Virus record (IMG/VR): IMGVR_UViG_3300032282_006988
Coordinates: 1 to 42,986 of that record
Length of the DNA: 42,986 nucleotides
Strand: one strand, 5' to 3'
From: a virus
Positions 8,205 to 40,168 of the stretch are shown in pieces. Numbering within the stretch: position 1 is the stretch's first letter; every line of letters starts with the position of its first letter. Below the pieces are notes generated by a model, which saw only the letters and a list, made by a program, of their open reading frames with translations, was not told the origin of the DNA and made no database searches. A program made the translations under genes and the position numbers.

Positions 8205-8233
8205 TTGACTTTTTATAAAATATGAGTCATAGT
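8205..8233 (+). promoter_or_regulatory. Sigma70-like promoter (TTGACT, 17 nt, CATAGT)
   Basis: -35 at 8205-8210 and -10 at 8228-8233. The stretch TTGACTTTTTATAAAA recurs at 17553 with the same -10, so this is a repeated phage promoter. Expected start near 8241, giving a leader of about 60 nt before the 24-aa ORF. Confidence 0.8.
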
Positions 8234-8256
8234 TATGGCTGTTGGGGTTAGAATAG

Positions 8257-8290
8257 TCATATAACCTACGGGTCTGTGACTCTTATATGA
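8257..8290 (+). promoter_or_regulatory. Leader with two mutually exclusive hairpins
   Basis: TCATATAA (8257-8264) can pair perfectly with TTATATGA (8283-8290), ending just at the AAAGGA ribosome-binding site. The overlapping segments AGTCA (8255-8259) and TGACT (8277-8281) can pair instead. Such exclusive folds next to a binding site suggest a switch, but this is inference from a short stretch of AT-rich sequence. Confidence 0.4.
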
Positions 8291-8302
8291 AAGGATACAT
8301 CT

Positions 8303-8377
8303 ATGGTCATTGCTATAGCATGTTACGCTGTTCTTGGCTTGATTGTCATTGCAGACAGCGATTATAACAGCAAATAA
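8303..8377 (+). CDS. 24-aa single-helix membrane peptide
   Basis: ATG at 8303 preceded by AAAGGA at 7-nt spacing, encoding MVIAIACYAVLGLIVIADSD and four more residues. The first 17 residues are hydrophobic enough for one membrane span. It has its own promoter (8205-8233), leader and terminator (8392-8426), so a monocistronic unit is built around it. It could also be a small RNA with a chance ORF. Function unknown. Confidence 0.55.
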   Translation: MVIAIACYAVLGLIVIADSDYNSK

Positions 8378-8391
8378 AACAGTAAATAACG

Positions 8392-8426
8392 AAAAAGGAC
8401 AGAGAAAGCTCTGTCCTTTTTTATTT
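8392..8426 (+). terminator. Rho-independent terminator
   Basis: Stem AAAGGACAGAG/CTCTGTCCTTT with loop AAAG and a long T-run. It closes the small transcription unit that starts at 8205. Confidence 0.9.
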
Positions 8427-8490
8427 TAATAAATATCTCGCAGCGGTCGTGAGTATTTGGGGGTTATCAAATGACCAATTGATTTCAATA

Positions 8491-8520: not shown

Positions 8521-9234
8521 TTACATTAGATACGGTAGATATGCTCTGCGAAGAACATCATTTGCATATTTATGATCAAATTCATAATTGAATTTGCGAT
8601 CTTCATATGCTTTCTTCATGAATGATTCGGCAAGATCAAATTTGTTGTTTACTTGGGCAATTGTATATTTGTGTGGTTGCGTTTTGATATCAAACAATTC
8701 TCTCCACACATTTTCATTTTCCATTTTTATATTGACTGGGAAGTAGCCTTTTAGGAAAAACGTTTCACCACAAAATCCAAGACGCAGCAATTGCGTTGCA
8801 TTTTTTGGAGAGAACCCGTGTTTGTCTAATTGAGCCTTACGTTTGCTACCAAGCCGACCTGTGCGTTCGCCGTTGGCAAGACGCCGTTCTCCCTGTATAT
8901 AACCAAGCAAGCATCTAAACATCTTGTCTGTGTCAAGAAACTTGAACTTGTTTGTTTGTATTTCTTCAAATACATCACTTGTCTCAAGCAAGTTGTCAGA
9001 GAATAGTATTTCAAGAGCACCTGTATTGCCATTACGAAGAAGCTCAAAAAACTTGCGAACTTCATAATAAACTATGTCGTCAGTTTCCTGTTTCTGAAGA
9101 TGATCCATACGCTCCAACCCAAGTATCTTGGATGGATCTTCATTTATGAACACACCTCTATAATCAAGGTCAGACTCTGGAGTATTGAGTCCATATGCCG
9201 TACTGCCTCCCAAAGCTTTTACTAACATTTTCAT
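8521..9234 (-). CDS. RlaP-type nucleotidyltransferase
   Basis: A 237-aa protein from the ATG at 9234 (a 239-aa reading from 9240 is possible, but that codon lies upstream of the expected transcription start). It carries the polymerase-beta-fold signature GGSTAYGLNTPESDLDYRGV at the N terminus (GS motif then SDxD acids) and the long helical C-terminal region of the RlaP/YcgL-like family (COG3541). These proteins are named for their association with RNA ligases, and are thought to add nucleotides to RNA ends or act in RNA repair. It is a single-gene unit with its own promoter and terminator. Confidence 0.8.
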   Translation of the reverse strand: MKMLVKALGGSTAYGLNTPESDLDYRGVFINEDPSKILGLERMDHLQKQETDDIVYYEVRKFFELLRNGNTGALEILFSDNLLETSDVFEEIQTNKFKFLDTDKMFRCLLGYIQGERRLANGERTGRLGSKRKAQLDKHGFSPKNATQLLRLGFCGETFFLKGYFPVNIKMENENVWRELFDIKTQPHKYTIAQVNNKFDLAESFMKKAYEDRKFNYEFDHKYANDVLRRAYLPYLM

Positions 9235-9241
9235 GCTCATA

Positions 9242-9269
9242 TATTCAATAAAAAGTAGAGTTTTGTCAA
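9242..9269 (-). promoter_or_regulatory. Sigma70-like promoter for RlaP
   Basis: On the minus strand, -35 TTGACA (9269-9264), 16-nt spacer, -10 TGAATA (9247-9242). The ATG at 9234 follows after 7 nt, so the transcript would be leaderless; this decides that start over the one at 9240. Confidence 0.6.
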
Positions 9270-9311
9270 GATTATTCTATATTTATACATGAACTTAAAA
9301 TAATATAAATT

Positions 9312-10008: not shown

Positions 10009-10513
10009 AGTTCATATCAAGGCGATAAATTATCACATCGTTGGGATAATCATCAAATGCCACTTCAATGAGTCGAGAAACAATGTCCCAAATTCCACCT
10101 CCGCGAAAACTTCCCATTTGATATGGAAATCCAACAGATGGAACGGGCAGGTCCATATCATTTTCTGTCAAATATTTAGACATACCCTCAAGAGCATTAT
10201 ATAATGCATCATAGTTGGTTTGTCTCACTCCCTTACCATATAGATTTTGACCATATAGATTGAAAATCTTTTTGATTTGAGTACCATGCTTATTGTATTG
10301 TTCCATTGGAATATATGCCATGCTGAAATTACCAAGAGTGTTTGACTTCTTTGACGCACACAATGTATCCACAGCATAAGCATCGGGATACATTTCACAA
10401 ATAGTGCGAGCAATGCCACTTCCAAATGTATTTTGACAATTGGCTTGATGACCAATTACCTCAACATCTTTAGCAAGCAATAGATTACCTTCTTTGTAAA
10501 TTAGTTTTTTCAT
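10007..10513 (-). CDS. Macro-domain protein (ADP-ribose binding/hydrolysis)
   Basis: A 168-aa protein covering one macro domain: VEVIGHQANCQNTFGSGIA (about residues 17-35, the Asn and Gly-rich ribose/phosphate loop) and VGFPYQMGSFRGGGIWDIV (about 127-145, the second phosphate loop and Trp). The family binds ADP-ribose and often removes it from proteins or nucleic acids or cleaves ADP-ribose-1''-phosphate from tRNA splicing. In a phage it could undo host ADP-ribosylation or serve RNA repair next to RlaP and the RNA ligase. It is a single-gene unit with its own promoter. Confidence 0.85.
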   Translation of the reverse strand: MKKLIYKEGNLLLAKDVEVIGHQANCQNTFGSGIARTICEMYPDAYAVDTLCASKKSNTLGNFSMAYIPMEQYNKHGTQIKKIFNLYGQNLYGKGVRQTNYDALYNALEGMSKYLTENDMDLPVPSVGFPYQMGSFRGGGIWDIVSRLIEVAFDDYPNDVIIYRLDMN

Positions 10514-10519
10514 TACAAC

Positions 10520-10547
10520 ATTCTTGCTAAAAAAATAAAAAAGTCAA
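10520..10547 (-). promoter_or_regulatory. Sigma70-like promoter for the macro-domain gene
   Basis: Minus strand TTGACT (10547-10542), 16-nt spacer, AAGAAT (10525-10520). Only 6 nt separate the -10 from the ATG at 10513, so the mRNA should begin at or near the start codon. Confidence 0.6.
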
Positions 10548-12200: not shown

Positions 12201-12475
12201 TGTAATCTTCCTCCACCAACCAACACATTACGAAGTGTGCTAGACTGACCCTTGCGGCTAGTCTTGGCCTTGAAGTCGGCAAATGTGTCTGGCAGCATAA
12301 CTTGCAGAAATCCAGCCGTCTTGTGCTCATATACTTGTGCACCCATATACCTAGATTGAGATACACCACGCTTTGCACAACGTAGGCAAACACGCAGACC
12401 AAGCTCTGCACGCGCAGACTCAATAGGCTCGGAGCAACAAGAACACGGATTTTTGTGTAGAGTAAAACCATTCAT
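12197..12475 (-). CDS. Small putative zinc-binding protein
   Basis: A 92-aa protein with paired cysteines: CSCC at about residues 11-14 and CLRC at about 30-33 (within RVCLRCAKRG), the spacing of a treble-clef or ribbon zinc site. The C-terminal half is basic (FKAKTSRKGQSS). First gene of the minus-strand operon; its ATG is 9 nt past the -10 box. A nucleic-acid-binding role is plausible but not shown. Confidence 0.6.
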   Translation of the reverse strand: MNGFTLHKNPCSCCSEPIESARAELGLRVCLRCAKRGVSQSRYMGAQVYEHKTAGFLQVMLPDTFADFKAKTSRKGQSSTLRNVLVGGGRLQ

Positions 12476-12484
12476 ATACCGAAA

Positions 12485-12512
12485 ATAATAGAGTAAGTAT
12501 ATAAAAAGTCAA
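12485..12512 (-). promoter_or_regulatory. Sigma70-like promoter of the phosphoesterase operon
   Basis: Minus strand TTGACT (12512-12507), 16-nt spacer, TATTAT (12490-12485). The ATG at 12475 begins 9 nt downstream of the -10. It diverges from the tmRNA promoter. Confidence 0.7.
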
Positions 12513-12554: not shown

Positions 12555-12586
12555 TTGACATGCTCACGATATGTGATACTTATAGT
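12555..12586 (+). promoter_or_regulatory. Probable promoter of the structured-RNA/tmRNA unit
   Basis: TTGACA at 12555-12560. The -10 is ambiguous: GATACT (12575-12580, spacer 14, preceded by TGT) or TATAGT (12581-12586, spacer 20). Either would drive the RNA genes downstream. Confidence 0.5.
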
Positions 12587-12612
12587 AGCAGTTCTTTGAT
12601 ACAACTTTTGAA

Positions 12613-12780
12613 GCATGTAGGGTAGTTAAAAGGGCCGCTGTTTAGGAAACTCGCGGTCATTCTTCTACGACAATATAGTAGGCACCAAGTTTTCTTGTTT
12701 AAAAGCCGAAGTCACGAAGATAGGACGAATTCCCCGAATGGAACTCCGGTACTGGCTCCCAAAAACCAGTCCCTACATGT
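12613..12780 (+). ncRNA. Unidentified structured RNA upstream of tmRNA
   Basis: A 9-bp perfect closing stem (CATGTAGGG 12614-12622 with CCCTACATG 12771-12779) encloses several hairpins: GGCCGC/GCGGTC at 12633-12658 with inner GTTT/AAAC, CTAC/GTAG around 12664-12681, and ACTGG/CCAGT around 12750-12770. A T-rich run follows the closing stem. No credible ORF fits this stretch. It could be a separate small RNA or the processed 5' leader of the tmRNA precursor. I do not recognise the family. Confidence 0.55.
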
Positions 12781-12791
12781 TTTCTTTTAAT

Positions 12792-13213: not shown

Positions 13214-13241
13214 TTGACTGAAAGCTTTTCTGGTGTATAGT
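13214..13241 (+). promoter_or_regulatory. Sigma70-like promoter (TTGACT, 16 nt, TATAGT)
   Basis: -35 at 13214-13219, -10 at 13236-13241. Leader of about 43 nt to the ATG at 13292, longer than at most other units here; no clear Shine-Dalgarno is seen. Confidence 0.75.
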
Positions 13242-13291
13242 TATTCGTACTTTACGTAAGTCGTGAAGATAAACAATAATATATAAAATAT

Positions 13292-14005
13292 ATGACAAAG
13301 AAAATCCTATTAATGATTACGGCATTGTTTGCCGCACTCACACTAACAGCCTCGGCTGTCACCGTCACAGCAGACGCAACATACTACACCAAGTTCTTGG
13401 ATCGTGGTGTTGTTGCATATGAAGATGTTGCAATCGTCGGAGCAAAAGTGGAAGTTGCAGGTTTTGTGTTGGGTGCAAGCACCTTCAACACCATTCAAGC
13501 AAATGCTGTGGGAAAGAACGTTGTAAGTTCTGGACTACTAAAGCGAATTGATACAACCGTTGGCTACAAGTTTACTGCTCCGTTGGCAAACTTGACCTTG
13601 GGTTCAGTTTATTCCTCTTATAGCAAGAGCATCTCCAGTATCTCCAGCACAAACGAACCATTCGTTAAGTTGGATGGTAAGTTGTGGAAGAATGCAGTGT
13701 GGGATATTACTGGTCGTGCCGATCTAAGGGTTCACACCAATAATCTAGAAACCAATGTTAAACTTCCTTTTGGACTTCAACGTCTAAAGATTGTTCCTTC
13801 TATTGGATATGGATTCAATGATCCGGGTGCAGCCACAATTGCTGCATTGAAAAATGCAAAGCAATATGCTCTGGTTGGTATTGGTTTGGGATATTACACG
13901 CAATATGCCACATTGAATATTGGTGTATATCAATCTCGTGACACGCTATTTACTGCCGGAAATACCAGCAGTGGAGTGTCTGGTGGTTTGGCTGTAAAGT
14001 TCTAA
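13292..14005 (+). CDS. Outer-membrane beta-barrel protein
   Basis: A 237-aa protein with a signal peptide (MTKKILLMITALFAALTLTA SA) followed by VTVTADATYYTKFLDRG, then repeated amphipathic strands (YKFTAPLANLTLGSVYSSYS, YALVGIGLGYYTQYATLNIG) and a C-terminal strand ending LAVKF. The terminal Phe is the usual outer-membrane assembly signal. The layout resembles small 8-12-strand porin-like barrels. In a phage, an exported barrel could mask or replace a receptor and exclude other phages. It is a single-gene unit with promoter and terminator. Confidence 0.75.
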   Translation: MTKKILLMITALFAALTLTASAVTVTADATYYTKFLDRGVVAYEDVAIVGAKVEVAGFVLGASTFNTIQANAVGKNVVSSGLLKRIDTTVGYKFTAPLANLTLGSVYSSYSKSISSISSTNEPFVKLDGKLWKNAVWDITGRADLRVHTNNLETNVKLPFGLQRLKIVPSIGYGFNDPGAATIAALKNAKQYALVGIGLGYYTQYATLNIGVYQSRDTLFTAGNTSSGVSGGLAVKF

Positions 14006-14024: not shown

Positions 14025-14057
14025 AAAAAAGGACACCGTAAATGGTGTCCTTTTTTT
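14025..14057 (+). terminator. Rho-independent terminator
   Basis: AAAAAAGGACACC-GTAAAT-GGTGTCCTTTTTTT, 20 nt after the barrel gene. The ATG inside its 3' arm (14042) is in frame with the next gene but is not a credible start. Confidence 0.9.
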
Positions 14058-14066: not shown

Positions 14067-14094
14067 TTGACAAACATCAACATATGTGTAATAT
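14067..14094 (+). promoter_or_regulatory. Sigma70-like promoter (TTGACA, 16 nt, TAATAT)
   Basis: -35 at 14067-14072, -10 at 14089-14094. The ATG at 14102 begins 7 nt later, so the expected transcript starts at or next to the start codon. The alternative ATG at 14084 lies in the spacer and would not be transcribed. Confidence 0.7.
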
Positions 14095-14101
14095 CACTAT
14101 T

Positions 14102-15049
14102 ATGATTCTATCACATAATATAGTTCCTTCACTTTGTTGTATTCACAATGGTCTAAAAGACCAAGGTGTTAAATTCAACACCATGACTTATGCTCAATAC
14201 AAGAAATTGGGCAAAGACACAGCAATGAAGGTTCTGGCAGACCGCTCGCTCAATAATATCAAGACTATTCATGTTATTATCAAAGAGTGTGCCAAAAACA
14301 AATGGAATTATAGAATTGGCAGCAATGTATTTCCGTTGATGACGCATCCAGAAGTTATGTATAAACTTGATGATTTCTATAATGCTGCTGAAATTTATAA
14401 CGAATTCAAATTGTGTGCTGACACTATCAAACAAAACAAAGTGCGTTGCAGCATGCATCCTGACCAGTTTGTGGTTCCTGCAAGTCCAAAAAATGGTGTT
14501 GCCGAAAACTCTATTCGCGACCTTGAACAACATGCTATGATTATGGATTTGCTTCAACTACCACAATCATATGCAGCACCAATCAATATTCATATGAATT
14601 GTTATAATGACGCCAAGTTTGGTGAAGTGATTGATAGATTGGAAAAAGTTCTCAAACGCATGTCAAAATCTGTAACAAGTAGGCTTGTTTTCGAGAACGA
14701 AGATAAACTAAAAAGTTGGACTGTATATAATCTACACGAATATCTTTATAAACGCACAGGTATTCCAATCACACACGACAATCTTCATAACAAATGCAAT
14801 CCATCCACACTTCTCGATGAACAACAAGCATTTGATTTATCTGTATCTACTTGGCCAGATGGTATTATTCCATTGTTTCATTTCAGTGAATCTCTTGCTG
14901 GTAAAAATCCACGTGCTCATGCCGACTTTCCTACATTTGTACCTATGGTATATTCTACATATAAAAAAGATTTGCATCTTGATTTTGAGTTCAAGCACAA
15001 AGAATCTGCTATAAATAAGATTTCTCGCAAAAACTTATTGACAAATTGA
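14102..15049 (+). CDS. uvsE: UV damage endonuclease (UvdE/UvsE family)
   Basis: A 315-aa protein from ATG 14102 (MILSHNIVPSLCC). It shows the TIM-barrel UvdE pattern: NWNYRIGSNVFPLMTHPEV-like segment (YRIGSNVFPLMTHP), VRCSMHPDQFVV, INIHMNCYND, RLVFENEDK and GIPITHDNLHNKCNP, with metal-binding His, Glu and Asp residues. The family nicks DNA 5' to UV photoproducts and starts repair. Full length for the family (about 300 aa). Longer upstream readings start inside the promoter or the terminator and are rejected. Confidence 0.85.
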   Translation: MILSHNIVPSLCCIHNGLKDQGVKFNTMTYAQYKKLGKDTAMKVLADRSLNNIKTIHVIIKECAKNKWNYRIGSNVFPLMTHPEVMYKLDDFYNAAEIYNEFKLCADTIKQNKVRCSMHPDQFVVPASPKNGVAENSIRDLEQHAMIMDLLQLPQSYAAPINIHMNCYNDAKFGEVIDRLEKVLKRMSKSVTSRLVFENEDKLKSWTVYNLHEYLYKRTGIPITHDNLHNKCNPSTLLDEQQAFDLSVSTWPDGIIPLFHFSESLAGKNPRAHADFPTFVPMVYSTYKKDLHLDFEFKHKESAINKISRKNLLTN

Positions 15050-15065
15050 GCACATCTGACATACT
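15038..15065 (+). promoter_or_regulatory. Sigma70-like promoter (TTGACA, 16 nt, CATACT)
   Basis: -35 at 15038-15043 lies in the last codons of the UV endonuclease gene; -10 at 15060-15065. It would give a leader of about 45 nt before the ATG at 15117. Confidence 0.7.
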
Positions 15066-15116
15066 TCATTTTGTAATCAACATTACATTATCAAATAACA
15101 ACTAAATCATACTAAT

Positions 15117-15332
15117 ATGACAAAAACAACTAAAACTAAGAATGGTCGCAAGGTCAATACTTTCGTCCAAAACGAAACATACGAGATTTCCTTCTCTCGC
15201 CCTACCAAGGGCGTCAAGGACGAAACCACTCATCTGAATGTCACCGGATTCAATCCAATCACTGGTGCAGTCAACAAGGTTCGCCTTGATGGACGCGCTG
15301 TTGCTGCTCTACGTCGAGTTCTTGCTAAGTAA
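15117..15332 (+). CDS. Small basic protein of unknown function
   Basis: A 71-aa, Lys/Arg/Thr-rich protein (MTKTTKTKNGRKVNTFVQNE) ending in a basic helix AVAALRRVLAK. No family recognised; nucleic-acid binding is possible from charge alone. It has its own promoter and a strong terminator, so it is probably made in quantity. Confidence 0.6.
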   Translation: MTKTTKTKNGRKVNTFVQNETYEISFSRPTKGVKDETTHLNVTGFNPITGAVNKVRLDGRAVAALRRVLAK

Positions 15333-15607: not shown

Positions 15608-15635
15608 TTGACATCTTATAAAAAAGTGTCATACT
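15608..15635 (+). promoter_or_regulatory. Sigma70-like promoter (TTGACA, 16 nt, CATACT)
   Basis: -35 at 15608-15613, -10 at 15630-15635, sharing the TTATAAAAA spacer with the promoters at 8205 and 17553. The GTG at 15642 starts 6 nt after the -10, implying a leaderless mRNA with a GTG start. Confidence 0.8.
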
Positions 15636-15641
15636 AAAGTA

Positions 15642-16758
15642 GTGAAAATTGACTTACAATCTATCGACAAAGAGTCGTTTATGGTTCATCAACACTTTGT
15701 TGGTGAGCATGAATGCTTTTTGGTGCAACCAATCCACATTTGGGGCAACTTGGAATAAAGAAAACCTTATTTATCGTTCTTCATTGTGGGATAAAGAGGG
15801 CAACGCAGTATCACTGTCGTTCAAAAAGTTTTTCAATTGGGATGAAAAGCCAGACATTTTTCCAGCACCTTCTAACCTAACTGGTGCGAAGTTGATGGAA
15901 AAGCTTGACGGTTCTACTTTAATATTTTCTCGCTACAAGGGTCAAACTGTTATTCGCACACGAGGAACTGTTGATGCTCGTAAGCAAGCAAATGGACATG
16001 AGATAGACTATTTGTGCGAAAAGTACAAAAAGTTTATTGTATATCTTGAAATGGTAGAAACTAGCAATGAGTCTTTTTTACTGGAATGGTTGTCGCCAAC
16101 AAATCGTATTGTACTGACGTATGGCGACGAACCCGACATGGTTTTGACTGCTATAATCAATCACAGTGAGTATTCCTTGATGCGCCAATCTCAATTGGAC
16201 TATTTTGCATCTGATATTGGGCTGCGTCGTCCCCGCACTTTCTCCTACAACTCCGTTGAAGAAATGAAGTCGGCAGTTGAAGTGTTGAAAGACCAAGAAG
16301 GTTTGTGTGTGTATTATAACAACGAACAACAAATTCGTAAAGTAAAAGCCGCACAATATCTATTCTTGCACCGTGCAAAGTCTGAAATATCAAGCATCGA
16401 CAAGGTGATTGATGTTTATATTGACTGGTTTATGGACCGTAATACACTTTCACACGAGTTCACTGGCTATCCAGAGTTTTTCAAGTATCTGACTGAAAAG
16501 TTTGATTTTGAAATTGCTACAATGGCAACTGGACATGCTTCGCGTATCTGCGATGCTATGAAAGAAGTGAAGAAGATAATGGACGCATTGGTTCTTTTCT
16601 CGTTCGACTGCATCAATATTCCTCGCAAGGAAGCCGCCGCTAAAATCTTGCAAGCATATGGTAGCACAGGTCGTGCAGCTATGGTATTCAAGATGCTTGA
16701 TACGAAGTATATTGGCGCAGATGAATATAAAAAATTGCTATATCAAGTATTGAAGTAA
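15642..16758 (+). CDS. T4 Rnl1-like RNA ligase, apparent +1 frameshift at about 15741
   Basis: From GTG 15642 the frame encodes VKIDLQSIDKESFMVHQHFV, continuing to LVQPIHI, as in phage RNA ligases, then goes out of frame. The next frame takes over with GATWNKENLIYRSSLW. Skipping one T in the TTT at 15739-15741 gives a continuous 371-aa protein, close to the 374 aa of T4 Rnl1. Ligase motifs: EKLDGS (nucleotidyl-lysine, near 15898), LLEWLSPTN, EGLCVYY and RKVKAAQY. It seals RNA ends, classically repairing cut tRNAs. Read without the shift, translation from TTG 15649 gives a scrambled N terminus. Sequencing error, mutation or programmed shift are all possible. Confidence 0.8.
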
Positions 16759-16764: not shown

Positions 16765-16798
16765 AGGGCTTGACTTTATATAGTTCAAGCCCTATACT
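16765..16798 (+). promoter_or_regulatory. Promoter embedded in an 11-bp inverted repeat
   Basis: -35 TTGACT (16770-16775), 17-nt spacer, -10 TATACT (16793-16798). The arms ATAGGGCTTGA and TCAAGCCCTAT are perfect complements and contain the -35 and most of the -10. The RNA from the upstream ligase gene could form this hairpin (no T-run follows), and a protein dimer could use it as an operator. The leader to ATG 16829 is about 23 nt. Confidence 0.65.
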
Positions 16799-16828
16799 AT
16801 TGCATATTAGAAATATACTTATTACTAT

Positions 16829-17338
16829 ATGATTAAACTACTAAGAGAGAAATATGAATTGCTAAGAGAAAGTAAATTGTTTTCTGAACTGAAGGCAGTG
16901 GCTTCACATAAGACAGATCTTCTTACATCCAAGATGTGGATTTTACCAGATGGTAAGCCTGTGTCTTTGGATCAATGGCATTACAGATGGTTGCAAAATA
17001 ATCCAAAAATTGCATTGAAGTATGGATTGGATGTTAAAACTTTGCCAGATGAAGAACAGCCTGTTCGTGTTGCTGCATTGAAGAAAGGATTTTTTCGCGT
17101 TAATTATGAATACAATAGTGGGACTATTACAATTGAAGGACTGTCCTCAAAGTTTCATAAAAAAATCAAAGATGCTATATTTGTGATTGCGATTGACAAT
17201 ATTAGATCAATTGATCGCATGAAATTGACACTAATGAATGAAACACTAACAAAAATTACCAGAGAGGAAGAAGCCACATTGTTCACATACAGAAGTGAAG
17301 AAGAAAAACTCGCCGCAGTTGAAGATATTATCAAATAA
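16829..17338 (+). CDS. Phage protein of unknown function
   Basis: A 169-aa protein. KMWILPDGKPVSLDQWHYRW near residues 36-55 looks like a conserved phage motif, but I cannot name the family. The C-terminal half is charged and helical (REEEATLFTYRSEEEKLAAV). No signal peptide or membrane span. It is transcribed from the promoter in the inverted repeat and followed closely by a 63-aa gene. Confidence 0.6.
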   Translation: MIKLLREKYELLRESKLFSELKAVASHKTDLLTSKMWILPDGKPVSLDQWHYRWLQNNPKIALKYGLDVKTLPDEEQPVRVAALKKGFFRVNYEYNSGTITIEGLSSKFHKKIKDAIFVIAIDNIRSIDRMKLTLMNETLTKITREEEATLFTYRSEEEKLAAVEDIIK

Positions 17339-17552: not shown

Positions 17553-17581
17553 TTGACTTTTTATAAAAATCCTATCATAGT
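17553..17581 (+). promoter_or_regulatory. Sigma70-like promoter (TTGACT, 17 nt, CATAGT)
   Basis: -35 at 17553-17558, -10 at 17576-17581; near-identical to the promoter at 8205. ATG 17597 follows after 15 nt, giving a leader of about 8-9 nt. Confidence 0.8.
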
Positions 17582-17596
17582 TATAGGTGTATAAAA

Positions 17597-18253
17597 ATGA
17601 ATGTTATCAATCAACCAGTATTATCTCTGAACGCAAACTGGATGGCTCTTGGAACCAAGACCGTCAAAGATGCGCTAATCGCTATGCTTGGCGGTGATGG
17701 TGGAAAGAATCCGCCAGCCGTTGCTATCGACATGGACTTTGCTATTGGTGCTGATGGTAATGTTGATTGGGACAACCCTACAAGCACCACTCCTGTTGGT
17801 TGGGATGTATGGAAGACATTGCCTGTGCGTGATTATGATTTGGCGATTCATACTGCCAATATGATTATTCGTGCTCCACGAGTTATTATTCAACCCAACT
17901 ATGGTAAAATGCCTATGGTACAGCCTCGTCCGACCAAGGAAAGTATTCGCAGACGCGACGGTGGCGTATGCCAATACACTGGACAGTCCCTTTCTTGGAA
18001 AGAAGGCAATATTGACCACGTTATTCCACGTGCTAAAGGTGGTAAAAACACTTTCGAGAACATGGTTTGGTGTCATAAGGACATCAATAGTGCTAAAGCA
18101 GACAAGACCCCTAAACAGGCTGGTCTAAAGCTTATTCGTAAGCCATATGCACCAAAGTCGATTCCTGTGAGCGCAACAATCAATATTGCTCATCACCCAA
18201 GTTGGGTTCACTTCCTTGATAATGTTACGCATGTGAAAGAAGTTGTAGCATAG
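17597..18253 (+). CDS. HNH endonuclease
   Basis: A 218-aa protein with an HNH domain at about residues 118-180: RRRDGGVCQYTGQ, then GNIDHVIPRAKGG and TFENMVWCHKDINSAKADK (the D-H, N and H positions, with Cys pairs that can hold zinc). This McrA/HNH_5-like layout is found in phage-encoded HNH proteins of varied roles. The 115-residue N-terminal region (VGWDVWKTLPVRDYDLAIH) is not recognised. It has its own promoter and no sign of disrupting a neighbour, so it need not be a homing enzyme. Confidence 0.75.
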   Translation: MNVINQPVLSLNANWMALGTKTVKDALIAMLGGDGGKNPPAVAIDMDFAIGADGNVDWDNPTSTTPVGWDVWKTLPVRDYDLAIHTANMIIRAPRVIIQPNYGKMPMVQPRPTKESIRRRDGGVCQYTGQSLSWKEGNIDHVIPRAKGGKNTFENMVWCHKDINSAKADKTPKQAGLKLIRKPYAPKSIPVSATINIAHHPSWVHFLDNVTHVKEVVA

Positions 18254-18260: not shown

Positions 18261-18287
18261 TTGACAAAATCAAGAATGTATCATAAT
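18261..18287 (+). promoter_or_regulatory. Sigma70-like promoter (TTGACA, 15 nt, CATAAT)
   Basis: -35 at 18261-18266, -10 at 18282-18287. The spacer is one shorter than in the other copies. ATG 18307 is 19 nt downstream. It drives a run of small overlapping genes to 19650. Confidence 0.6.
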
Positions 18288-18306
18288 CTGATGCATTCTT
18301 TTATTT

Positions 18307-18663
18307 ATGGACTATTTCACATTAACATTGTGCGTTTTGCTGCTTGCATATTCTGTTCGCTCTTATTATCAAATAGAGAAACTAAAGCAAAAACTCATTG
18401 AACAAGACGATGGTCATAAAAGAGCACTCGCAACAGCAGGAAATGCAATCACAGACACACTCAAAGTTGCATTTGAGCAACTAAAGAAAAACAATTCGGA
18501 CCATAGCAAAATAAATAGTAAAACAACCGAACTTAACTCAAGATTATATAGATTGGAACAACGACAAATCCGCAGCACACGAGATGATGTTAAGCGCAGT
18601 AATAACTCTAATAAAGCACAATCAAAAAATTTGACACAGGAAAACAAAAATGAAAACAAATAA
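18307..18663 (+). CDS. Membrane-anchored coiled-coil protein
   Basis: A 118-aa protein: one N-terminal transmembrane helix (YFTLTLCVLLLAYSV), then a long charged helix likely to form a coiled coil (residues about 22-95) and a polar Asn/Lys tail. The tail would lie in the cytoplasm or periplasm depending on orientation. Overlaps the next gene by 14 bp. Role unknown; spanin-like or membrane-tether functions are conceivable but unsupported. Confidence 0.6.
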   Translation: MDYFTLTLCVLLLAYSVRSYYQIEKLKQKLIEQDDGHKRALATAGNAITDTLKVAFEQLKKNNSDHSKINSKTTELNSRLYRLEQRQIRSTRDDVKRSNNSNKAQSKNLTQENKNENK

Positions 18664-19655: not shown

Positions 19656-19683
19656 TTGACATATATCCATACTATTGTATAGT
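19656..19683 (+). promoter_or_regulatory. Sigma70-like promoter (TTGACA, 16 nt, TATAGT)
   Basis: -35 at 19656-19661, -10 at 19678-19683. ATG 19695 begins 11 nt after the -10, for a leader of about 5 nt. Confidence 0.75.
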
Positions 19684-19694
19684 TGGTAAATAAC

Positions 19695-20162
19695 ATGGCA
19701 AAAATAAAAAACGAAGTTGATAAAAAGCCAAAGACTAAAAGTTTATTTGACCACCTCAATGAAGTGCGTGTGGGAAAAAATCCTAAATACTTTGATACAT
19801 TGTCTGATGCGGATAAAAAGACTTGGAGTAATTATATGCTATGCAGATTTTTGAGCATGCAGATGGACTTTGTTGATAGCATCAATGATTTACAATATTA
19901 TCAAGACAAACTAACCCCTGAGCAATTTTATAGAATTTGTATTGTTGTTGTGCCAAAAGCCAAAGTGTTTGTGCCATATATCAAAAACAGCAGAGAGAAA
20001 CACAACAAAACTTTATTGACTCTGTTGTGCATGCATTTCAAAGACAGCGAACGCAATGTAGTTGAATATATGAGTATCATGACCAATGACGACATTCGCA
20101 GTGTTGTGCAAAACTATGGTTATAGCACAGATCAAGTGGAAGAAATGCTTGAAAAGGCTTGA
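19695..20162 (+). CDS. Clamp-loader small subunit (T4 gp62-like)
   Basis: A 155-aa protein from ATG 19695 (a TTG reading at 19683 falls in the -10 box). SLFDHLNEV, then TWSNYMLCRFLSMQMDFVD and YYQDKLTPEQFYRICIVVVP, follow the order seen in gp62-type subunits (Y-M-x-x-R-F-L-S-M, F-x-x-x-x-N, then a hydrophobic V-P-K). With gp44 it loads the sliding clamp onto DNA. No gp44 gene is in the window. The dNMP kinase that follows supports a replication block. The similarity is distant, so confidence is moderate. Confidence 0.6.
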   Translation: MAKIKNEVDKKPKTKSLFDHLNEVRVGKNPKYFDTLSDADKKTWSNYMLCRFLSMQMDFVDSINDLQYYQDKLTPEQFYRICIVVVPKAKVFVPYIKNSREKHNKTLLTLLCMHFKDSERNVVEYMSIMTNDDIRSVVQNYGYSTDQVEEMLEKA

Positions 20163-20186
20163 CCAACTTGTGTAAGTGTTTATATT
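20159..20186 (+). promoter_or_regulatory. Sigma70-like promoter (TTGACC, 16 nt, TATATT)
   Basis: -35 at 20159-20164 overlaps the stop of the clamp-loader gene; -10 at 20181-20186. ATG 20195 begins 8 nt later, implying a leaderless mRNA. Confidence 0.65.
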
Positions 20187-20194
20187 GATTGTAT

Positions 20195-20854
20195 ATGAGC
20201 AACAAAAAGGTGATTGGTGTTGGGGGCGCGGCCCGCAGTGGAAAAGATACATTTGCTTCAATTTTGAGCAGAAATCTTCAACAGGCCGGAAAGTCTGTAA
20301 AACGAATTGCTTTGGCTGATCCGCTAAAGGAAAACGTAGATGCTTTCTTGCTAAAAAATATTGGCGTGTCTGCTTTCACATCTGTTCCAGAAGAAAAGTT
20401 GCTTATTCGTCCTATGCTTGTGTGGTATGGCGATGCTCAACGCAAGCGTACCAATGGTAGATATTGGATTGATATTGCCAAGAAAACCATTGATGAAACA
20501 AATTATGATTATTATATCATCACAGACGTTCGTTATGATGTATATGAAAAAGATGAACTTTATTTTCTAAAGAATGAAGTGAATGGCGTATTATGCCATA
20601 TCAGCAAATATACTATCAGCAAAGAAACTCGTGTGCTTGAACCATATGGATCAATCATAACAACGATTGAAAAGAGATTTGTTCAACCCGCCAATGAACA
20701 TGAAGAAGAAAATGATCCAAAGATCAAAGCCGCTGCACATCATGCCATTGAATGGGAACATGTAGAATACAAACTACCAGAAGCGTTATTGTTTGACCCA
20801 CAACTAAATGCTCACGTAGACAAGTTTATGGATATCTGGATTCAGAAGTTTTGA
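20195..20854 (+). CDS. Deoxynucleoside monophosphate kinase (T4 gp1-like)
   Basis: A 219-aa kinase. P-loop GGAARSGKDTF (residues about 9-19), then RIALADPLKENV, LVWYGDAQRKR and IITDVRYDVYEKDEL, the sequence of motifs in phage dNMP kinases that phosphorylate dNMPs for viral DNA synthesis. Start at 20195 because the upstream TTG reading adds only MY and lies in the promoter region. The 3' end overlaps the convergent minus-strand gene by 13 bp. Confidence 0.85.
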   Translation: MSNKKVIGVGGAARSGKDTFASILSRNLQQAGKSVKRIALADPLKENVDAFLLKNIGVSAFTSVPEEKLLIRPMLVWYGDAQRKRTNGRYWIDIAKKTIDETNYDYYIITDVRYDVYEKDELYFLKNEVNGVLCHISKYTISKETRVLEPYGSIITTIEKRFVQPANEHEEENDPKIKAAAHHAIEWEHVEYKLPEALLFDPQLNAHVDKFMDIWIQKF

Positions 20855-21345
20855 TCCCGCGAATCCTCGTCGTCATATCCTTCGTCGTCATATCCTTCGT
20901 CTCTGTCATCACCATTTTCATATTCTGCGCCATCGTCTTCATCTATATCATTTTCAAGTTCTTGTTTTAGATTAACAAAATCTTCTTGTGTGAGACCAAG
21001 TTTATCAATTATAGATGAAATCAAAAATGCAAGTTCGCGTTTGTTAAAATTTTGTGATTTAATTCCTTTACAAAATTTTGTGGTGATACTAAACAAAAGT
21101 GTTTTATTACCATCTTCAGCGGCAGGATAAATAATTCCAGGTATTGGATTACTTTGATCATGCATGTTGGAGATTTTTAGCATTTCTTCACTCAACATTT
21201 TTTTATATTCAGCATCATCTGATGCAACACTCTTGATCAATGCTTTGAGTTCGTCTATATCTTTTTTCTTGACAACTTTGGCTACGGTGAATGTTTTCAG
21301 TACACCCGTTTTTTGTAGAACATGTGAGAAAGATTTATTTTCCAT
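20842..21345 (-). CDS. Protein with acidic repeat tail, unknown function
   Basis: A 167-aa protein from ATG 21345 (MENKSFSHVLQKTGVLK); an in-frame ATG at 21375 would add 10 residues and overlap the opposing promoter. The N-terminal 130 residues are helical. The C terminus is strongly acidic with a short DEGYDDEGYDDED repeat, a pattern seen in proteins that mimic DNA or bind basic partners. It lies between two convergent plus-strand genes. No family recognised. Confidence 0.6.
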   Translation of the reverse strand: MENKSFSHVLQKTGVLKTFTVAKVVKKKDIDELKALIKSVASDDAEYKKMLSEEMLKISNMHDQSNPIPGIIYPAAEDGNKTLLFSITTKFCKGIKSQNFNKRELAFLISSIIDKLGLTQEDFVNLKQELENDIDEDDGAEYENGDDRDEGYDDEGYDDEDSRDQNF

Positions 21346-21374
21346 CGTTCTTAATAAATATACAGTCATTAGCA

Positions 21375-21402
21375 TTGACAGATAGTTTTGTTGCTATATA
21401 GT
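21375..21402 (+). promoter_or_regulatory. Sigma70-like promoter (TTGACA, 16 nt, TATAGT)
   Basis: -35 at 21375-21380, -10 at 21397-21402. ATG 21411 begins 8 nt later, implying a leaderless mRNA. Confidence 0.8.
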
Positions 21403-21410
21403 AGTAGTAT

Positions 21411-22418
21411 ATGTCAAATCAATTTCTTGTAGAAACTCCTGAGCCTACACCAGTTCCAACAGAACAAGCAGTGCCGGTAAAAAAACTCAAGAATGTGAGT
21501 TTCAGCCAATATAGCAAATGGCTAAAATGTCCTATGGAATGGAAGCTTTCATATATTGACAAGTTGGCTCCATATGAAGCAAGCATACATACCACATTTG
21601 GCACAGCCATTCATGCTGCATTGCAAGAATATCTTCGTTTGTTATATACTGTAGGAACTGCTGAAGCAGATGCGTTGGATGCATTTGGTTTGTTCAAGAA
21701 AGAATATGAAGAAGGATTAAAAGATCTAAAGATTGCTACAGATGAACAGCTCAAATTGAGCGAAGAAGAACGAGATACATTGGGTTTGATTACACAAGAT
21801 GTGGTAAAAGAGTTTGAGAATGATGGTAAAGTTATTCTGGACCATGTATTGGCATATTCACAGCGTGGCAAGCATTTTCCAAGCAAGAAATATGAACTGG
21901 TTGGCATTGAACTACCATTGGAAATTCCATTGAAAGGTGGTACAATATTATACAAAGGATTTCTTGACATTGTGCTACGAGACAAACTGACCAAAAAGGT
22001 ACTTATTTTAGATTTCAAGACATCAACCAATGGTTGGAATAAATATCAGAAGGCAGACAGAACCAAGATTGATCAACTGTTGTTGTATAAGCGGTTTTAT
22101 AATCAAATGTTTAAGGTTCCGATGACTGACATCGAAATTGAATTCTTTGTTGTAAAACGCAAACTATACGAGGATGTAGCTTTTCCACAACAACGCATTC
22201 AACGTATTTCTCCACCCGATGGTAAAATTAGCATGAAACAAGTTGAAACATCATTCTTAGAGTTTATCAATGCTGGATTTGATGCCGCCGGTGAATATAA
22301 TAAAGACGGTGTGTTTCCCAAGCAACCCGGCAAAGCCAAGAAGAATTGCAAATATTGTATCTTTAAAGAACTGAAGAACGCCGAAGGAAAGTTATATTGT
22401 GACGGAAAAGAAACTTGA
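21411..22418 (+). CDS. PD-(D/E)XK nuclease, RecB/Cas4-like
   Basis: A 335-aa nuclease. FSQYSKWLKCPMEWKLSYID and FGTAIHAALQEY give the RecB-type N-terminal helix and metal-binding His. YKGFLDIVLRD (about residue 182) and VLILDFKTS (about 201) supply the catalytic D and DxK, and IDQLLLYKRFY the conserved Gln-x-x-x-Tyr. C-terminal cysteines (CKYCIFKEL and a late C) may bind an Fe-S cluster or zinc as in Cas4/AddB-type enzymes. Likely an exonuclease in phage recombination or host-DNA degradation. Confidence 0.85.
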   Translation: MSNQFLVETPEPTPVPTEQAVPVKKLKNVSFSQYSKWLKCPMEWKLSYIDKLAPYEASIHTTFGTAIHAALQEYLRLLYTVGTAEADALDAFGLFKKEYEEGLKDLKIATDEQLKLSEEERDTLGLITQDVVKEFENDGKVILDHVLAYSQRGKHFPSKKYELVGIELPLEIPLKGGTILYKGFLDIVLRDKLTKKVLILDFKTSTNGWNKYQKADRTKIDQLLLYKRFYNQMFKVPMTDIEIEFFVVKRKLYEDVAFPQQRIQRISPPDGKISMKQVETSFLEFINAGFDAAGEYNKDGVFPKQPGKAKKNCKYCIFKELKNAEGKLYCDGKET

Positions 22419-22512
22419 TAAGTAGTTTTTATATATTGATTTGATTTCTTATATATACGGAATGTTATTTTCATATATATGTATATAGGAAAAATCAATA
22501 ATACTATTATAT

Positions 22513-23430: not shown

Positions 23431-23458
23431 TTGACATTACGAAAATTTAAAACATACT
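23431..23458 (+). promoter_or_regulatory. Sigma70-like promoter (TTGACA, 16 nt, CATACT)
   Basis: -35 at 23431-23436, -10 at 23453-23458. The ATG of the 15-codon remnant at 23469 follows after 10 nt, so this was probably the original promoter of the GT4 gene whose 5' end is duplicated at 23469 and 23943. Confidence 0.75.
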
Positions 23459-23468
23459 AATCTTATAT

Positions 23469-23516
23469 ATGAAAAATGGTTATATTCCTCAAAAGGACAG
23501 AAAATATAATAAGTAA
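23469..23516 (+). pseudogene. 5'-end remnant of the GT4 gene (15 codons)
   Basis: Encodes MKNGYIPQKDRKYNK then stop. Its first eight residues equal the start of the GT4 protein at 23943 (MKNGYIPQAQRKK), but four of the eight codons differ at the third position only. It sits at leaderless distance from a promoter. It looks like the old start of the GT4 gene, cut off when the RHH/nuclease segment arrived. Confidence 0.6.
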
Positions 23517-23567
23517 AATCTGTAGACATTTGTATGTTTTTGTATACGACTTGATATTTATTGATAT

Positions 23568-23702
23568 ATGAAAAAATCATCGCCGAGAAAAATGATTGGA
23601 GTGAACACGGAAACTTACAAGAGAGTGAAAGATTACTGCGATGCTCGTGCATTAAAAATTGCCAAGTGGGTGGAAAAAATTCTCAATGATGCCGTCAAAT
23701 AA
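23568..23702 (+). CDS. 44-aa ribbon-helix-helix-like protein
   Basis: ATG 23568 encodes MKKSSPRKMIGVNTETYKRV and continues to KIAKWVEKILNDAVK: a strand (KMIGVN) and two helices, the minimal ribbon-helix-helix DNA-binding fold. It overlaps the nuclease gene by 14 bp. The pair could be a compact homing cassette (DNA-binding plus cutting subunit) or resemble an antitoxin-toxin pair. Too short for firm assignment. Confidence 0.55.
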   Translation: MKKSSPRKMIGVNTETYKRVKDYCDARALKIAKWVEKILNDAVK

Positions 23703-37331: not shown

Positions 37332-37657
37332 AGAAATTTAGATTGGAAAATTTCGTTGGAGGCTGGTTTGTTGGAGATTTTGAACCAACAATCATTCAAA
37401 CACAAAACGCGGAAGTGAGTATAAAGCACTATAAAGCGGGATTCACAGAAGCACCGCATATTCATAAGATTGCAGAAGAAGTCACTGTGTTGATCAGTGG
37501 ACAGGCAAATATAGACGGAGTGGTTTATGGATCGGGTGATATATTGTTGATTGAAAAGAATGAAGCAATAAACTTTGTAGCATTAACGGACATGATTACT
37601 TGTGTAGTGAAAGTTCCGTCGGTAAAAGGAGATAAATATGTTGTTGATAAGTCATAG
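37328..37657 (+). CDS. Cupin-domain protein
   Basis: A 109-aa single-domain cupin with a GTG start overlapping the previous stop. APHIHKIAEEVTVLISGQAN carries the HxH...E cupin-1 motif, and YGSGDILLIEKNEAINFVAL the second strand pair (without a clear His). Likely a sugar-nucleotide isomerase-like or sensor protein in the same pathway. Confidence 0.72.
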   Translation: MKKFRLENFVGGWFVGDFEPTIIQTQNAEVSIKHYKAGFTEAPHIHKIAEEVTVLISGQANIDGVVYGSGDILLIEKNEAINFVALTDMITCVVKVPSVKGDKYVVDKS

Positions 37658-38072
37658 AGGAAACATCAACGGTTCCAATACAAACACGGAAAATAGTATT
37701 CCACAAATTGCAATAGCAATGCGACACGGGTTTGACGTGGAAGTTGATGTTAGACTGTTGGGAGATGGCTGGTATCTTGGACATGATTATGCTCAGTATA
37801 AAATAGACCAATCATTTTTACAAGAACATGCCGAAAAATTGTGGTGTCATGCCAAAAACGTGGCAGCACTTGAAAAAATGCTGGAACTCAAGTTGAATTG
37901 TTTTTGGCATGAAGACGATCAGTATACACTAACTTCAAGAGGAATAGTTTGGGCATATCCAAATTATTATTGCAAAGGTGCTGTACTGGTGATGCCAGAT
38001 AAAGAATTTCTTGACAATTTAAAAGAATCTATTTATGGTATTTGTATAGACAATCCGCAAAACTATTTATGA
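37638..38072 (+). CDS. Short glycerophosphodiester-phosphodiesterase-like protein
   Basis: A 144-aa protein. LLISHRGNINGSNTNTENSI followed by AMRHGFDVEVDVRLLGDGWY and LGHD match the GDPD catalytic start (HRG, ENS, ExD, H). The usual family is about 230-250 residues, so the later barrel strands are shortened; phage and capsule-cluster versions of this length are known to me. Overlaps both neighbours. Confidence 0.68.
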   Translation: MLLISHRGNINGSNTNTENSIPQIAIAMRHGFDVEVDVRLLGDGWYLGHDYAQYKIDQSFLQEHAEKLWCHAKNVAALEKMLELKLNCFWHEDDQYTLTSRGIVWAYPNYYCKGAVLVMPDKEFLDNLKESIYGICIDNPQNYL

Positions 38073-38746
38073 GAATTGCAATTTTACTATCAGGATATCC
38101 AAGAAAATATGATGTGGCATATGAATCATTGAAAGCGCCATATATAGACAAACATCAATGTGATGTGTTTGTTCATTCATGGTATGCACCAGAAAAGGTT
38201 GATAACAGTGTATATGCTGGTCTGATTGACACATTCAAGCCAACCAAAATGCTACTTGAAACACAGCGCATCTTTGATACATCCACGGAACGAGATCAAT
38301 GGAATTTATTGCTACAAAACACTTTATCTCAGTTCTATTCAGTATATAAAGCAAATCAATTGAAATGTGATTATGAAAATGAAAATAATTTCAAGTATGA
38401 CCTTGTAATCAGAATGCGAACAGATTTGCGTATAAAGCGTCCTATAGAAACAAGTGAAATAAATCCAAATCGTTTGGCAATATACAACTGGACACAGCTA
38501 AGTTTTGGTTATATGGGAGTGTCTGACGTATTTGCAATTGGACCATCGGACTTGATGAATATATATACAGATTTCTTTACTAAAATAAAGTATTATGTTG
38601 ATTCTGACGAAACGTACAATATTCCAGATGGAAAGACTCGGCCTGAATATCTGTTGCGTCATCACATCATGACTGCCAACACACTTCCGTTGCAAATATT
38701 TTGGCATGGTGACCAAACCGATCCAAGTTTTGAATTGGTGCGATGA
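38069..38746 (+). CDS. Glycosyltransferase-like protein
   Basis: A 225-aa protein from ATG 38069, which overlaps the previous stop (ATGA). MRIAILLSGYPRKYDVAYES, CDVFVHSWY, and KYDLVIRMRTDLRIKRPIET (about residue 110) are typical of a group of phage and capsule glycosyltransferase-like proteins with an RxRxD element. Exact family uncertain. It closes the main glycan run. Confidence 0.65.
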   Translation: MRIAILLSGYPRKYDVAYESLKAPYIDKHQCDVFVHSWYAPEKVDNSVYAGLIDTFKPTKMLLETQRIFDTSTERDQWNLLLQNTLSQFYSVYKANQLKCDYENENNFKYDLVIRMRTDLRIKRPIETSEINPNRLAIYNWTQLSFGYMGVSDVFAIGPSDLMNIYTDFFTKIKYYVDSDETYNIPDGKTRPEYLLRHHIMTANTLPLQIFWHGDQTDPSFELVR

Positions 38747-38773
38747 TATTTGAGCACAAGCACTTGTTATAGT

Positions 38774-38802
38774 TTGACTGTTTGGTCAAACATGTCCATA
38801 GT
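38774..38802 (+). promoter_or_regulatory. Sigma70-like promoter within an inverted repeat
   Basis: -35 TTGACT (38774-38779), 17-nt spacer, -10 CATAGT (38797-38802). GTTTGAC and GTCAAAC (38772-38792) form a perfect 7-bp inverted repeat over the -35 and may be an operator. ATG 38816 is 13 nt past the -10, a leader of about 6 nt. Confidence 0.75.
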
Positions 38803-38815
38803 GTTTATTACATCA

Positions 38816-40168
38816 ATGGCAAAAATAACCAACGCCCTGTTCACCAGTTTCAAAGAACTGAATGAGTATAAAAACTTGACGACACTTCAAAAGAAGTTTT
38901 TCAAGGATTTTTTCTCTGGAAGAAATATATTCTTGACAGGACCGGCCGGGGTTGGAAAGTCGTATTGCGCCAGTCTCTTATTCAAGTTTCTTGATTTGAA
39001 TGGCATTTTTTATGCAAAAACTGCAACAACTGGTGTAGCTGCATTAAATATAGGTGGAGTAACTTTACATTCATGGTCTGGTATGGGATTGGCCGAAGAA
39101 AATGGCATGGAACTGCTTGATAAAGTGTCTGAAAATAACAAGGCAGTCAATCGTATCAAGCACAGCAAAGTGCTTATCATAGATGAAATATCTATGGCCA
39201 AGAGCGATTTGATTGATAAACTTGATATTGTTTGTCAATATATTAGAAACAAAGACAAACCATTTGGTGGTATTCAAGTTGTGTTTGTGGGTGATTTCAT
39301 GCAACTGCCACCTGTGTTCAAGAATTTTGATGAAGAAAAGTTTGCATTTGATTCTCAAGCGTGGCGTGATGCTAAAGTAAAAACAATTCATTTGACTGAA
39401 ATTGTAAGACAGCATGACGAACCTCATTTTGCCAAGTTGCTCAATGAAATACGAATGGGTTGTGCCAAAGATTTTACATTGCTATTGGGTTGTTTGGATA
39501 GAAAGTTTCCAGATGATGGCATCAAGCCCGTCAAATTGTTTTGTAAAAATATTGATGTAAGCAAATATAACCACGACGAGTTGTATAAAATAAAAAATCA
39601 AAGTAAGTTTTATCATTCATCTGATTCTGGTGGTGATATGTGGCGTCAATTTTTTGATAAGAATTGTCCCGCTCCAACTACACTAGAATTGCGTAAAGGT
39701 GCTCAAGTTATTTTGCTGGTCAATTTGGATACAAAACTTGGATTGGTCAATGGCAGTGTTGGCACAGTGACCGAGGTATATGATACATATGTTGATATAA
39801 AATTTGCTTGTGGTGCTCAAATTATTGAAACATATAAATGGGAAATAAAGCAAAACGAGTATGATGCATTGACTGGTAATATGAAAAAGACTGTATTAGC
39901 TTCTCGCTCCCAACTCCCGTTGAAATTGGCTTGGGCAATAACAATTCACAAAAGTCAGGGCAGTACTCTCGATAGAGCAGAAATTGATGTAAGCGAAGCA
40001 TTTGCGGCTGGACAAGTGTATGTAGCATTGAGCAGAGTGCGTAACTTGGCTTCACTGAAAATACTCAGCTTTTCTCCACACAAAATCAAAGTAAATAAAA
40101 GATGTTTAGATTTTTATAATTCGCAAATTGATGAAAAAGAGATAGAGTTCTTTGTTGATGAGGATTGA
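38816..40168 (+). CDS. Dda/Pif1-type SF1B DNA helicase
   Basis: A 450-aa helicase (T4 Dda has 439). Start at 38816 because the upstream in-frame readings lie in the promoter. Walker A TGPAGVGKSY (about residue 40), motif Ia TATTGVAALNIGG, Walker B KVLIIDEISMA (about 118), VFVGDFMQLPPVF (motif III), motif IV/V around LPLKLAWAITIHKSQGSTLD and VYVALSRVRNL (motif VI). A 5'-3' helicase in replication start and recombination. Expressed separately from the glycan genes around it. Confidence 0.88.
   Translation: MAKITNALFTSFKELNEYKNLTTLQKKFFKDFFSGRNIFLTGPAGVGKSYCASLLFKFLDLNGIFYAKTATTGVAALNIGGVTLHSWSGMGLAEENGMELLDKVSENNKAVNRIKHSKVLIIDEISMAKSDLIDKLDIVCQYIRNKDKPFGGIQVVFVGDFMQLPPVFKNFDEEKFAFDSQAWRDAKVKTIHLTEIVRQHDEPHFAKLLNEIRMGCAKDFTLLLGCLDRKFPDDGIKPVKLFCKNIDVSKYNHDELYKIKNQSKFYHSSDSGGDMWRQFFDKNCPAPTTLELRKGAQVILLVNLDTKLGLVNGSVGTVTEVYDTYVDIKFACGAQIIETYKWEIKQNEYDALTGNMKKTVLASRSQLPLKLAWAITIHKSQGSTLDRAEIDVSEAFAAGQVYVALSRVRNLASLKILSFSPHKIKVNKRCLDFYNSQIDEKEIEFFVDED

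Follow-up and report, generated by a model that had tools for sequence, protein, structure and literature searches.

TTGAC-Type Promoters of the Analyzed Viral Fragment

The window analyzed in this work is a 42,986-bp fragment from a viral sequence collection (IMG/VR record IMGVR_UViG_3300032282_006988), whose genes include those for tRNAs, a transfer-messenger RNA (tmRNA), nucleic-acid enzymes, and glycosyltransferases. Its subject is a repeated TTGAC-type promoter, located so close to the start codons of many genes that their messenger RNAs (mRNAs) are predicted to be leaderless or nearly so. The first-pass annotation of this DNA had reported such a promoter in front of first genes of transcription units, and the re-examination revealed 17 sites (TTGACA, TTGACT, or TTGACC) with spacers of 16 or 17 nt, mostly 16 (Table 1). 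They combine a TTGACA-like −35 box, a spacer within 16–18 nt, and a TATAAT-like −10 box, as in sigma-70-type promoters. All of the eleven start codons named in the annotation are present, with a −10 box 6–15 nt upstream, and if transcription begins in the sigma-70 manner, about 7 nt after this box, the proposed leaders of 0–9 nt are indeed predicted for them. Judged from this geometry, the predicted leader is 0–7 nt in 10 of the 11 genes, which would be shorter than the limit of about 8 nt for the 5′ untranslated region (UTR) of a leaderless gene. It should be added that the start at 15642 is a GTG, that ATG 23469 opens 15 codons only, that the −10 boxes of 9269(−) (TGAATA) and 10547(−) (AAGAAT) are weak, and that site 12555, located in front of an RNA region, lacks a clear −10 box at the normal spacing.

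Table 1. Promoter elements of the window. d, gap in bases from −10 box to start codon. The terms early-type and late-type reflect gene content only.
Site	Strand	Extent	Type	Boxes	d (nt)	Start codon	Gene or remark
8205	+	8205..8305	same type, leadered				leader ~62 nt; AAAGGAT before small open reading frame (ORF)
9269	−	9234..9269	early-type	TTGACA-16-TGAATA	7	ATG 9234	RlaP-type nucleotidyltransferase
10547	−	10513..10547	early-type	TTGACT-16-AAGAAT	6	ATG 10513	PHROG 'phosphatase' (phrog_335, macrodomain-like)
12512	−	12475..12512	early-type	TTGACT-16-TATTAT	9	ATG 12475	small cysteine-rich protein; promoter kept in loci L004 and L132
12555			TTGAC-type				
13214	+	13214..13294	same type, leadered				leader ~44 nt
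14067	+	14067..14104	early-type	TTGACA-16-TAATAT	7	ATG 14102	UvdE
15038	+	15038..15119	same type, leadered				leader ~45 nt
15608	+	15608..15644	early-type	TTGACA-16-CATACT	6	GTG 15642	RNA ligase (RNA_lig_T4_1)
16770	+	16770..16831	same type, leadered				leader ~24 nt; −35 in inverted-repeat arm
17553	+	17553..17599	TTGAC-type	TTGACT-17-CATAGT	15	ATG 17597	HNH gene
18261	+	18261..18309	composite	TTGACA, then terminator-like hairpin and U-tract with −10 in/at loop		ATG 18307	leader ~11 nt
19656	+	19656..19697	early-type	TTGACA-16-TATAGT	11	ATG 19695	weak clamp-loader A match
20159	+	20159..20197	early-type	TTGACC-16-TATATT	8	ATG 20195	dNMP kinase
21375	+	21375..21413	early-type	TTGACA-16-TATAGT	8	ATG 21411	PD-(D/E)XK nuclease
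23431	+	23431..23471	early-type	TTGACA-16-CATACT	10	ATG 23469	15-codon stub in window
38774	+	38774..38818	TTGAC-type	TTGACT-17-CATAGT	13	ATG 38816	Pif1-like helicase; 12 nt in G1
21343	−	21343..21362	late-type	TATATTTAT	8	ATG 21345	convergent gene 20842-21345 (minus-strand position 21625)

Three window proteins were used as queries, which yielded 174 loci on related viral contigs, and two long relatives, G1 (297,258 bp) and G2 (184,824 bp), were read completely. The UvdE and PD-(D/E)XK proteins of G1 are about 92–95% identical to those of the window, and those of G2 about 76–79%. According to PHROG matches, G1 encodes a terminase, a portal, a major head protein, a baseplate wedge, a family-B DNA polymerase, and RIIA, which places it among T4-superfamily myoviruses; a ribonucleotide reductase is also present among these genes. 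Two distant relatives, G3 and G4, both encode bS21 (PF01165), which was not found in G1 and G2 (both possibly incomplete).

Distance between Promoters and Start Codons

A position weight matrix (PWM) was built from the promoter boxes alone, with no information on distance, and both strands were scanned with a cut-off of at least 12 bits. Noncoding DNA of the window gave 0.72 matches per kb per strand, as against 0.21 for its coding DNA and 0.14 after shuffling of the noncoding part; the corresponding values for G1 were 0.77, 0.12, and 0.14. When the matches were plotted against the first ATG opening an ORF of 40 codons or more, a peak at 6–11 nt appeared. Such an ATG follows 5 of the 14 matches in the window (0.4 expected from random noncoding positions), 41 of the 112 noncoding matches in G1 (3.4 expected; P about 3e-33), and 26 of 55 in G2 (1.8 expected; P about 3e-24). 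Promoter matches within genes showed no peak at this distance. As far as sequence can tell, nothing points to transcription starting well upstream of the boxes or to a motif that is as frequent inside genes as before first genes. Counting from the side of the genes, a promoter lies 4–13 nt before the start of 55 of the 324 genes of G1 and 29 of the 181 genes of G2, compared with only 14 and 4 cases, respectively, at 14–23 nt and with 10 of 1219 internal ATGs.

The shape of the distribution is informative as well. At a threshold of 9, 70 gene starts are located 6–12 nt from a promoter versus 8 at 0–5 nt, and this steep drop below 6 nt coincides with the limit at which a sigma-70 transcript just includes the AUG, which supports initiation 6–8 nt after the −10 box. 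Moreover, in 34 of the 66 cases with d of 6–9 nt, no purine is present from the seventh base after the −10 box up to the ATG, and thus the A of the AUG would be the first likely starting base.

The boxes might also be chance AT-rich look-alikes, or serve some function other than that of promoters. A simple consensus scan, which found 81 sites against 65 expected and is not significant alone, would agree with this, and the promoter signal does require the specific matrix together with position. Nevertheless, the roughly six-fold enrichment of matches in noncoding over coding DNA of G1, the fixed spacer, and the conservation of the boxes amid diverged spacers make this explanation very hard to credit.

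We also considered that the promoters generally stand behind intrinsic terminators and that leaderless translation is thereby forced. This was rejected, as only 3 of 41 cases in G1 and 3 of 27 in G2 show such an arrangement. The UvdE promoter, immediately preceded by the intrinsic terminator 14025-14056, is one clear terminator-then-promoter case.

A different arrangement was observed at 18261-18307 and in its orthologues (A3), where the promoter overlaps a terminator-like hairpin and the ATG follows the U-tract. Among about 14 distinct relatives, the letters of the stem are wholly changed, while the hairpin, the U-tract, TTGACA, and the −10 box are retained. Such an element could terminate transcription arriving from upstream and at once initiate a transcript of its own.

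Conservation of the Promoter Geometry among Related Phages

Upstream of the UvdE genes, about 20 distinct sequences keep TTGACA (or TCGACA), a spacer of 16–17 nt, the −10 box, and 6–10 nt to the ATG, with varying spacer letters. The distance from the box to the ATG is likewise kept, despite spacer divergence, for the PD-(D/E)XK, glycosyltransferase (23943), and RNA ligase genes, and an early-type promoter 4–13 nt before the start is shared by 10 of 18 N-terminally aligned G1–G2 orthologues (43–87% identity). At 9269(−), the relatives retain TTGAC and their start aligns with 9234 and not with 9240, and the 10547(−) promoter is present in some relatives, the gene being operon-internal in others. 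For the HNH gene (17597), most relatives have a longer leader carrying AAAGGAT, and leaderlessness is not conserved. Taken over these relatives, the near-leaderless geometry is, as far as comparison of sequences can tell, under selection.

The same alignments bear on the possibility that the start codons were misannotated and that translation begins downstream, behind longer leaders. The codon model alone does prefer later starts in a few genes (14183 for UvdE and 17642 for HNH). However, orthologues can be aligned from residue 1, and their first codons vary at third positions; M-I-L opens UvdE in 13 of 13 aligned sequences, and the alignment starts at residue 1 for 99 of 106 UvdE loci. Furthermore, the start codon of the RNA ligase is GTG or ATG at the identical place, depending on the relative, and this exchange supports the start assignment. 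We therefore regard wrongly placed starts as highly unlikely.

Two of the genes compared here carry irregularities of their own. In the RNA ligase gene (15642-16758), a length difference of a single base interrupts the reading frame, which in the relatives is open for about 370 codons; this may reflect either a genuine mutation or a mistake in assembly. At 23431-23945, behind the conserved glycosyltransferase promoter and first codons, the frame ends with a stop after 15 codons; then come about 470 bp with a DUF7487-like fragment and a second, diverged glycosyltransferase start at 23943, which opens the intact copy. In relatives the gene is intact at the 23469 position, and the region of the window looks like a mobile gene inserted with duplication of the 5′ end.

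Shine-Dalgarno Background

Shine-Dalgarno (SD)-like sites precede 6% of the genes of G1 and 8% of those of G2, compared with 5% in shuffled sequences. The same measure gives 56% for a 50-kb stretch of T4 (shuffled, 18%), 35% for Microcystis phage Mel-JY01, 25% for G3, and 29% for G4. None of the promoter-adjacent genes (0 of 38 in G1 and 0 of 16 in G2) has an SD-like site, as expected of leaderless genes, and T occupies position −1 at 65–68% of the starts in both genomes. As the SD signal is at background in all gene classes, its lack characterizes the genome at large and not only first genes. The suggestion that downstream genes use GGAGG-type sites thus did not prove general, the GGAGG at 12200 being an exception to the SD-free pattern.

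These numbers also suit an account in which the short leaders are real and no special pathway exists: the host ribosome would be SD-independent, leaders without function would have drifted to the minimum, and starts would be recognized in the same way as those of internal genes. Apart from the uniform SD background, it is favored by the frequency of T at −1, which hardly differs between closely spaced genes and the remainder of G1 (0.64 versus 0.65), and by the known scarcity of SD sites in bacteria such as Bacteroidota and some Verrucomicrobia (PMC10783764). Against it stand the sharp distance peak at the physical minimum, where drift would leave a broad spread, and the longer leaders that G3 and G4 keep on a shared late-type motif (see below). 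We consider this account a serious one, about which we are nearly evenly divided, with a slight leaning towards doubt.

The Late-Type Motif and bS21-Encoding Relatives

The strand-specific motif enriched upstream in the region of structural genes of G1 is ATATTTAT(A). Its form [TC]ATATTTAT is located 4–9 nt before an ATG at 15 of 43 noncoding sites in G1 and at 11 of 22 in G2, and a second group of sites lies at 14–30 nt, a few of them with an SD-like site. This second class with the same close placement had escaped the first-pass annotation. The T4-type late promoter TATAAATA, which a gp55-type sigma reads, was not the enriched element of this region; it was [TC]ATATTTAT instead. Direct protein search of G1 and G2 gave no match to T4 gp55, and a Sigma70_r2 search of both found nothing, each of these being a weak negative.

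G3 and G4 resemble the lineage of the window in their PD-(D/E)XK nuclease (38–39% identical) and in the same [TC]ATATTTAT motif, and they carry bS21 like the lake phages with predicted Bacteroidetes hosts (PMC9723584). They differ in having longer leaders on this motif, a higher share of SD-like sites (25–29%), and few TTGAC promoters. Noncoding [TC]ATATTTAT occurs at 13 and 18 sites in G3 and G4, yet only 0 and 1 of these, respectively, lie at 4–9 nt, and TTGAC promoters are nearly absent (8 and 3 matches).

This comparison is relevant to the idea that short leaders merely reflect the packing economy of a compact genome and have nothing to do with the mode of translation. Many promoters do occupy short intergenic gaps, as such an idea would predict. 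On the other hand, compact T4 and Mel-JY01, as well as G3 and G4, have no 6–11 nt peak, though they contain few matches to the matrix, and about 20% of G1 is noncoding by our home-made gene calls; we find this explanation unlikely.

Proposed Mode of Gene Expression

The best explanation of these observations, which we hold with good confidence, is that near-leaderless promoters of the sigma-70 type and of the late type serve mRNAs whose AUG is recognized without SD pairing. The TTGAC elements would be sigma-70-type phage promoters (consensus cTTGAC(A/T)TTTtatAAAA....cATa.T, spacer of 16–17 nt), mainly of non-structural genes, and, as their boxes suggest, they would be read by the host RNA polymerase with a sigma-70-type factor. 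A separate factor presumably reads the late-type [TC]ATATTTAT, mainly in the structural-gene region, where the same close placement is seen at a third to half of the sites. The edge of the distance distribution points to RNA that begins at the AUG or up to about 5 nt before it, and with transcription starting at or near the start codon, the mRNAs would be leaderless or nearly so. Ribosomes would then engage the AUG without SD pairing, a mode that would suit operon-internal genes too. Direct AUG recognition appears most likely because the genome is without SD sites, U is preferred at −1, and the start region is AT-rich. This suggests that the phage relies on ribosomes needing no ribosome-binding-site signals.

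Several points weigh against this explanation. At least five window sites are leadered (predicted 11–62 nt), as are many G1 matches, in some orthologues the promoter is replaced by an operon-internal position, and read-through from upstream could also yield leadered versions of the transcripts. In E. coli, GTG (as at the RNA ligase and at G1 151326) would make a poor start codon for leaderless translation. With respect to the data themselves, the gene calls come from a home-made codon model; the matrix was trained on sites picked near starts, which biases the presence of matches and not their distance; and since the proteins are 92–95% identical, the region of G1 overlapping the window is not independent of it. 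The proposal that leaderless first genes are systematic is thus sustained, as far as promoter geometry goes, for a core set, which is repeated genome-wide and kept in diverged relatives, but it does not extend to the leadered window sites or to the HNH gene, with its longer leader in relatives.

In a wider sense, we are inclined to think, with modest confidence, that in one lake lineage of the T4 superfamily gene expression as a whole has moved over to mRNAs that are near-leaderless and SD-free, in both promoter classes, while distant bS21-carrying relatives remained leadered. If this is true, phages would be tuning leader length to the ribosome of the host, and this widespread lineage with its leadered relatives would offer a natural comparison for studying viral adaptation to SD-ignoring ribosomes. 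There is also a practical aspect, as programs for gene prediction that expect leaders or SD sites will assign wrong starts in phages of this kind; the promoter matrix may be used for calling starts and transcription units.

Comparison with Known Systems

Leaderless translation is usually deemed rare in phages beyond those of Thermus and a few repressor genes, and our literature search for phage-wide surveys of leaderless genes found no relevant one. Leaderless phage mRNAs are not without precedent: middle and late transcripts of Thermus phage phiYS40 are mostly leaderless by experiment, according to the account of Sevostyanova et al. 2007 given in PMC3594737. The predicted likeness is that entire temporal classes consist mostly of leaderless transcripts, which the host ribosome reads. 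The differences are that phiYS40 has a Deinococcus-Thermus host and that its middle and late classes are concerned, whereas here a non-structural sigma-70-type class is predicted from sequence to be so too, in the company of T4-superfamily structural and replication genes.

In Deinococcus-Thermus bacteria, a −10 motif about 6–7 nt before ORFs gives leaderless mRNA (PMC12340547), and in bacterial "TA-led" genes, the −10 box is centered about 12 nt before the start codon (PMC3160421). Those genes are cellular and mostly without a −35 box, unlike the viral genes with a strong TTGAC −35 described here. Leaderless mRNA from a sigma-70 promoter is also known for lambda cI and other individual phage genes (PMC9031893, PMC3160421), but these are isolated cases in SD-using phages, while in the present lineage dozens of genes are concerned and there is no SD background. 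Jumbo phage AR9 is another large phage with mapped promoters; it differs in its 5′ UTRs of 26–491 nt and its own RNA polymerases (PMC5312081). What is new is the extent of the phenomenon, which in this lake lineage of the T4 superfamily concerns dozens of genes in two promoter classes and goes along with a lack of SD background, and its contrast with leadered distant relatives.

Host Clues and Accompanying Elements

Alignment of an outer-membrane-like protein found no genome relative that could indicate the host, and when 388 genomes from the phylum of G005 (titled Verrucomicrobia) were searched for the phage tmRNA, two marginal matches were all that resulted. Near the tRNA genes, at 6972-8054, two secreted-looking proteins with immunoglobulin-type domains are encoded; to take them as a hint at a Verrucomicrobiota host is only a guess. 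Given the promoter type of Bacteroidota, canonical TTGAC promoters argue against a host from that phylum. Some members of Verrucomicrobiota have been reported as SD-scarce (PMC10783764).

Between a TTGACA box and the tmRNA gene, about 200 bp of noncoding DNA (12585-12790) are conserved in 68 loci, with identity down to 73%. This stretch gave no Rfam family at the gathering score, and it may be an undescribed RNA or a part of the tmRNA precursor. The leader at 13214-13292 (about 44–60 nt), which in relatives precedes an outer-membrane-like protein, contains a conserved hairpin-like repeat CTTTAC..GTGAAG. A near-palindromic TTTTTATAAAAA between −35 and −10 is common to many early-type promoters (150–210 kb of G1, e.g., loci L185–L187, and 8205, 17553, and 12512 in the window) and is perhaps a site for a phage regulator. 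Finally, upstream of the small-protein gene 22513, at about 22473-22500, TTTCATATATATGTATATA is nearly invariant across many relatives, and it is possible that it represents an operator or another promoter type.

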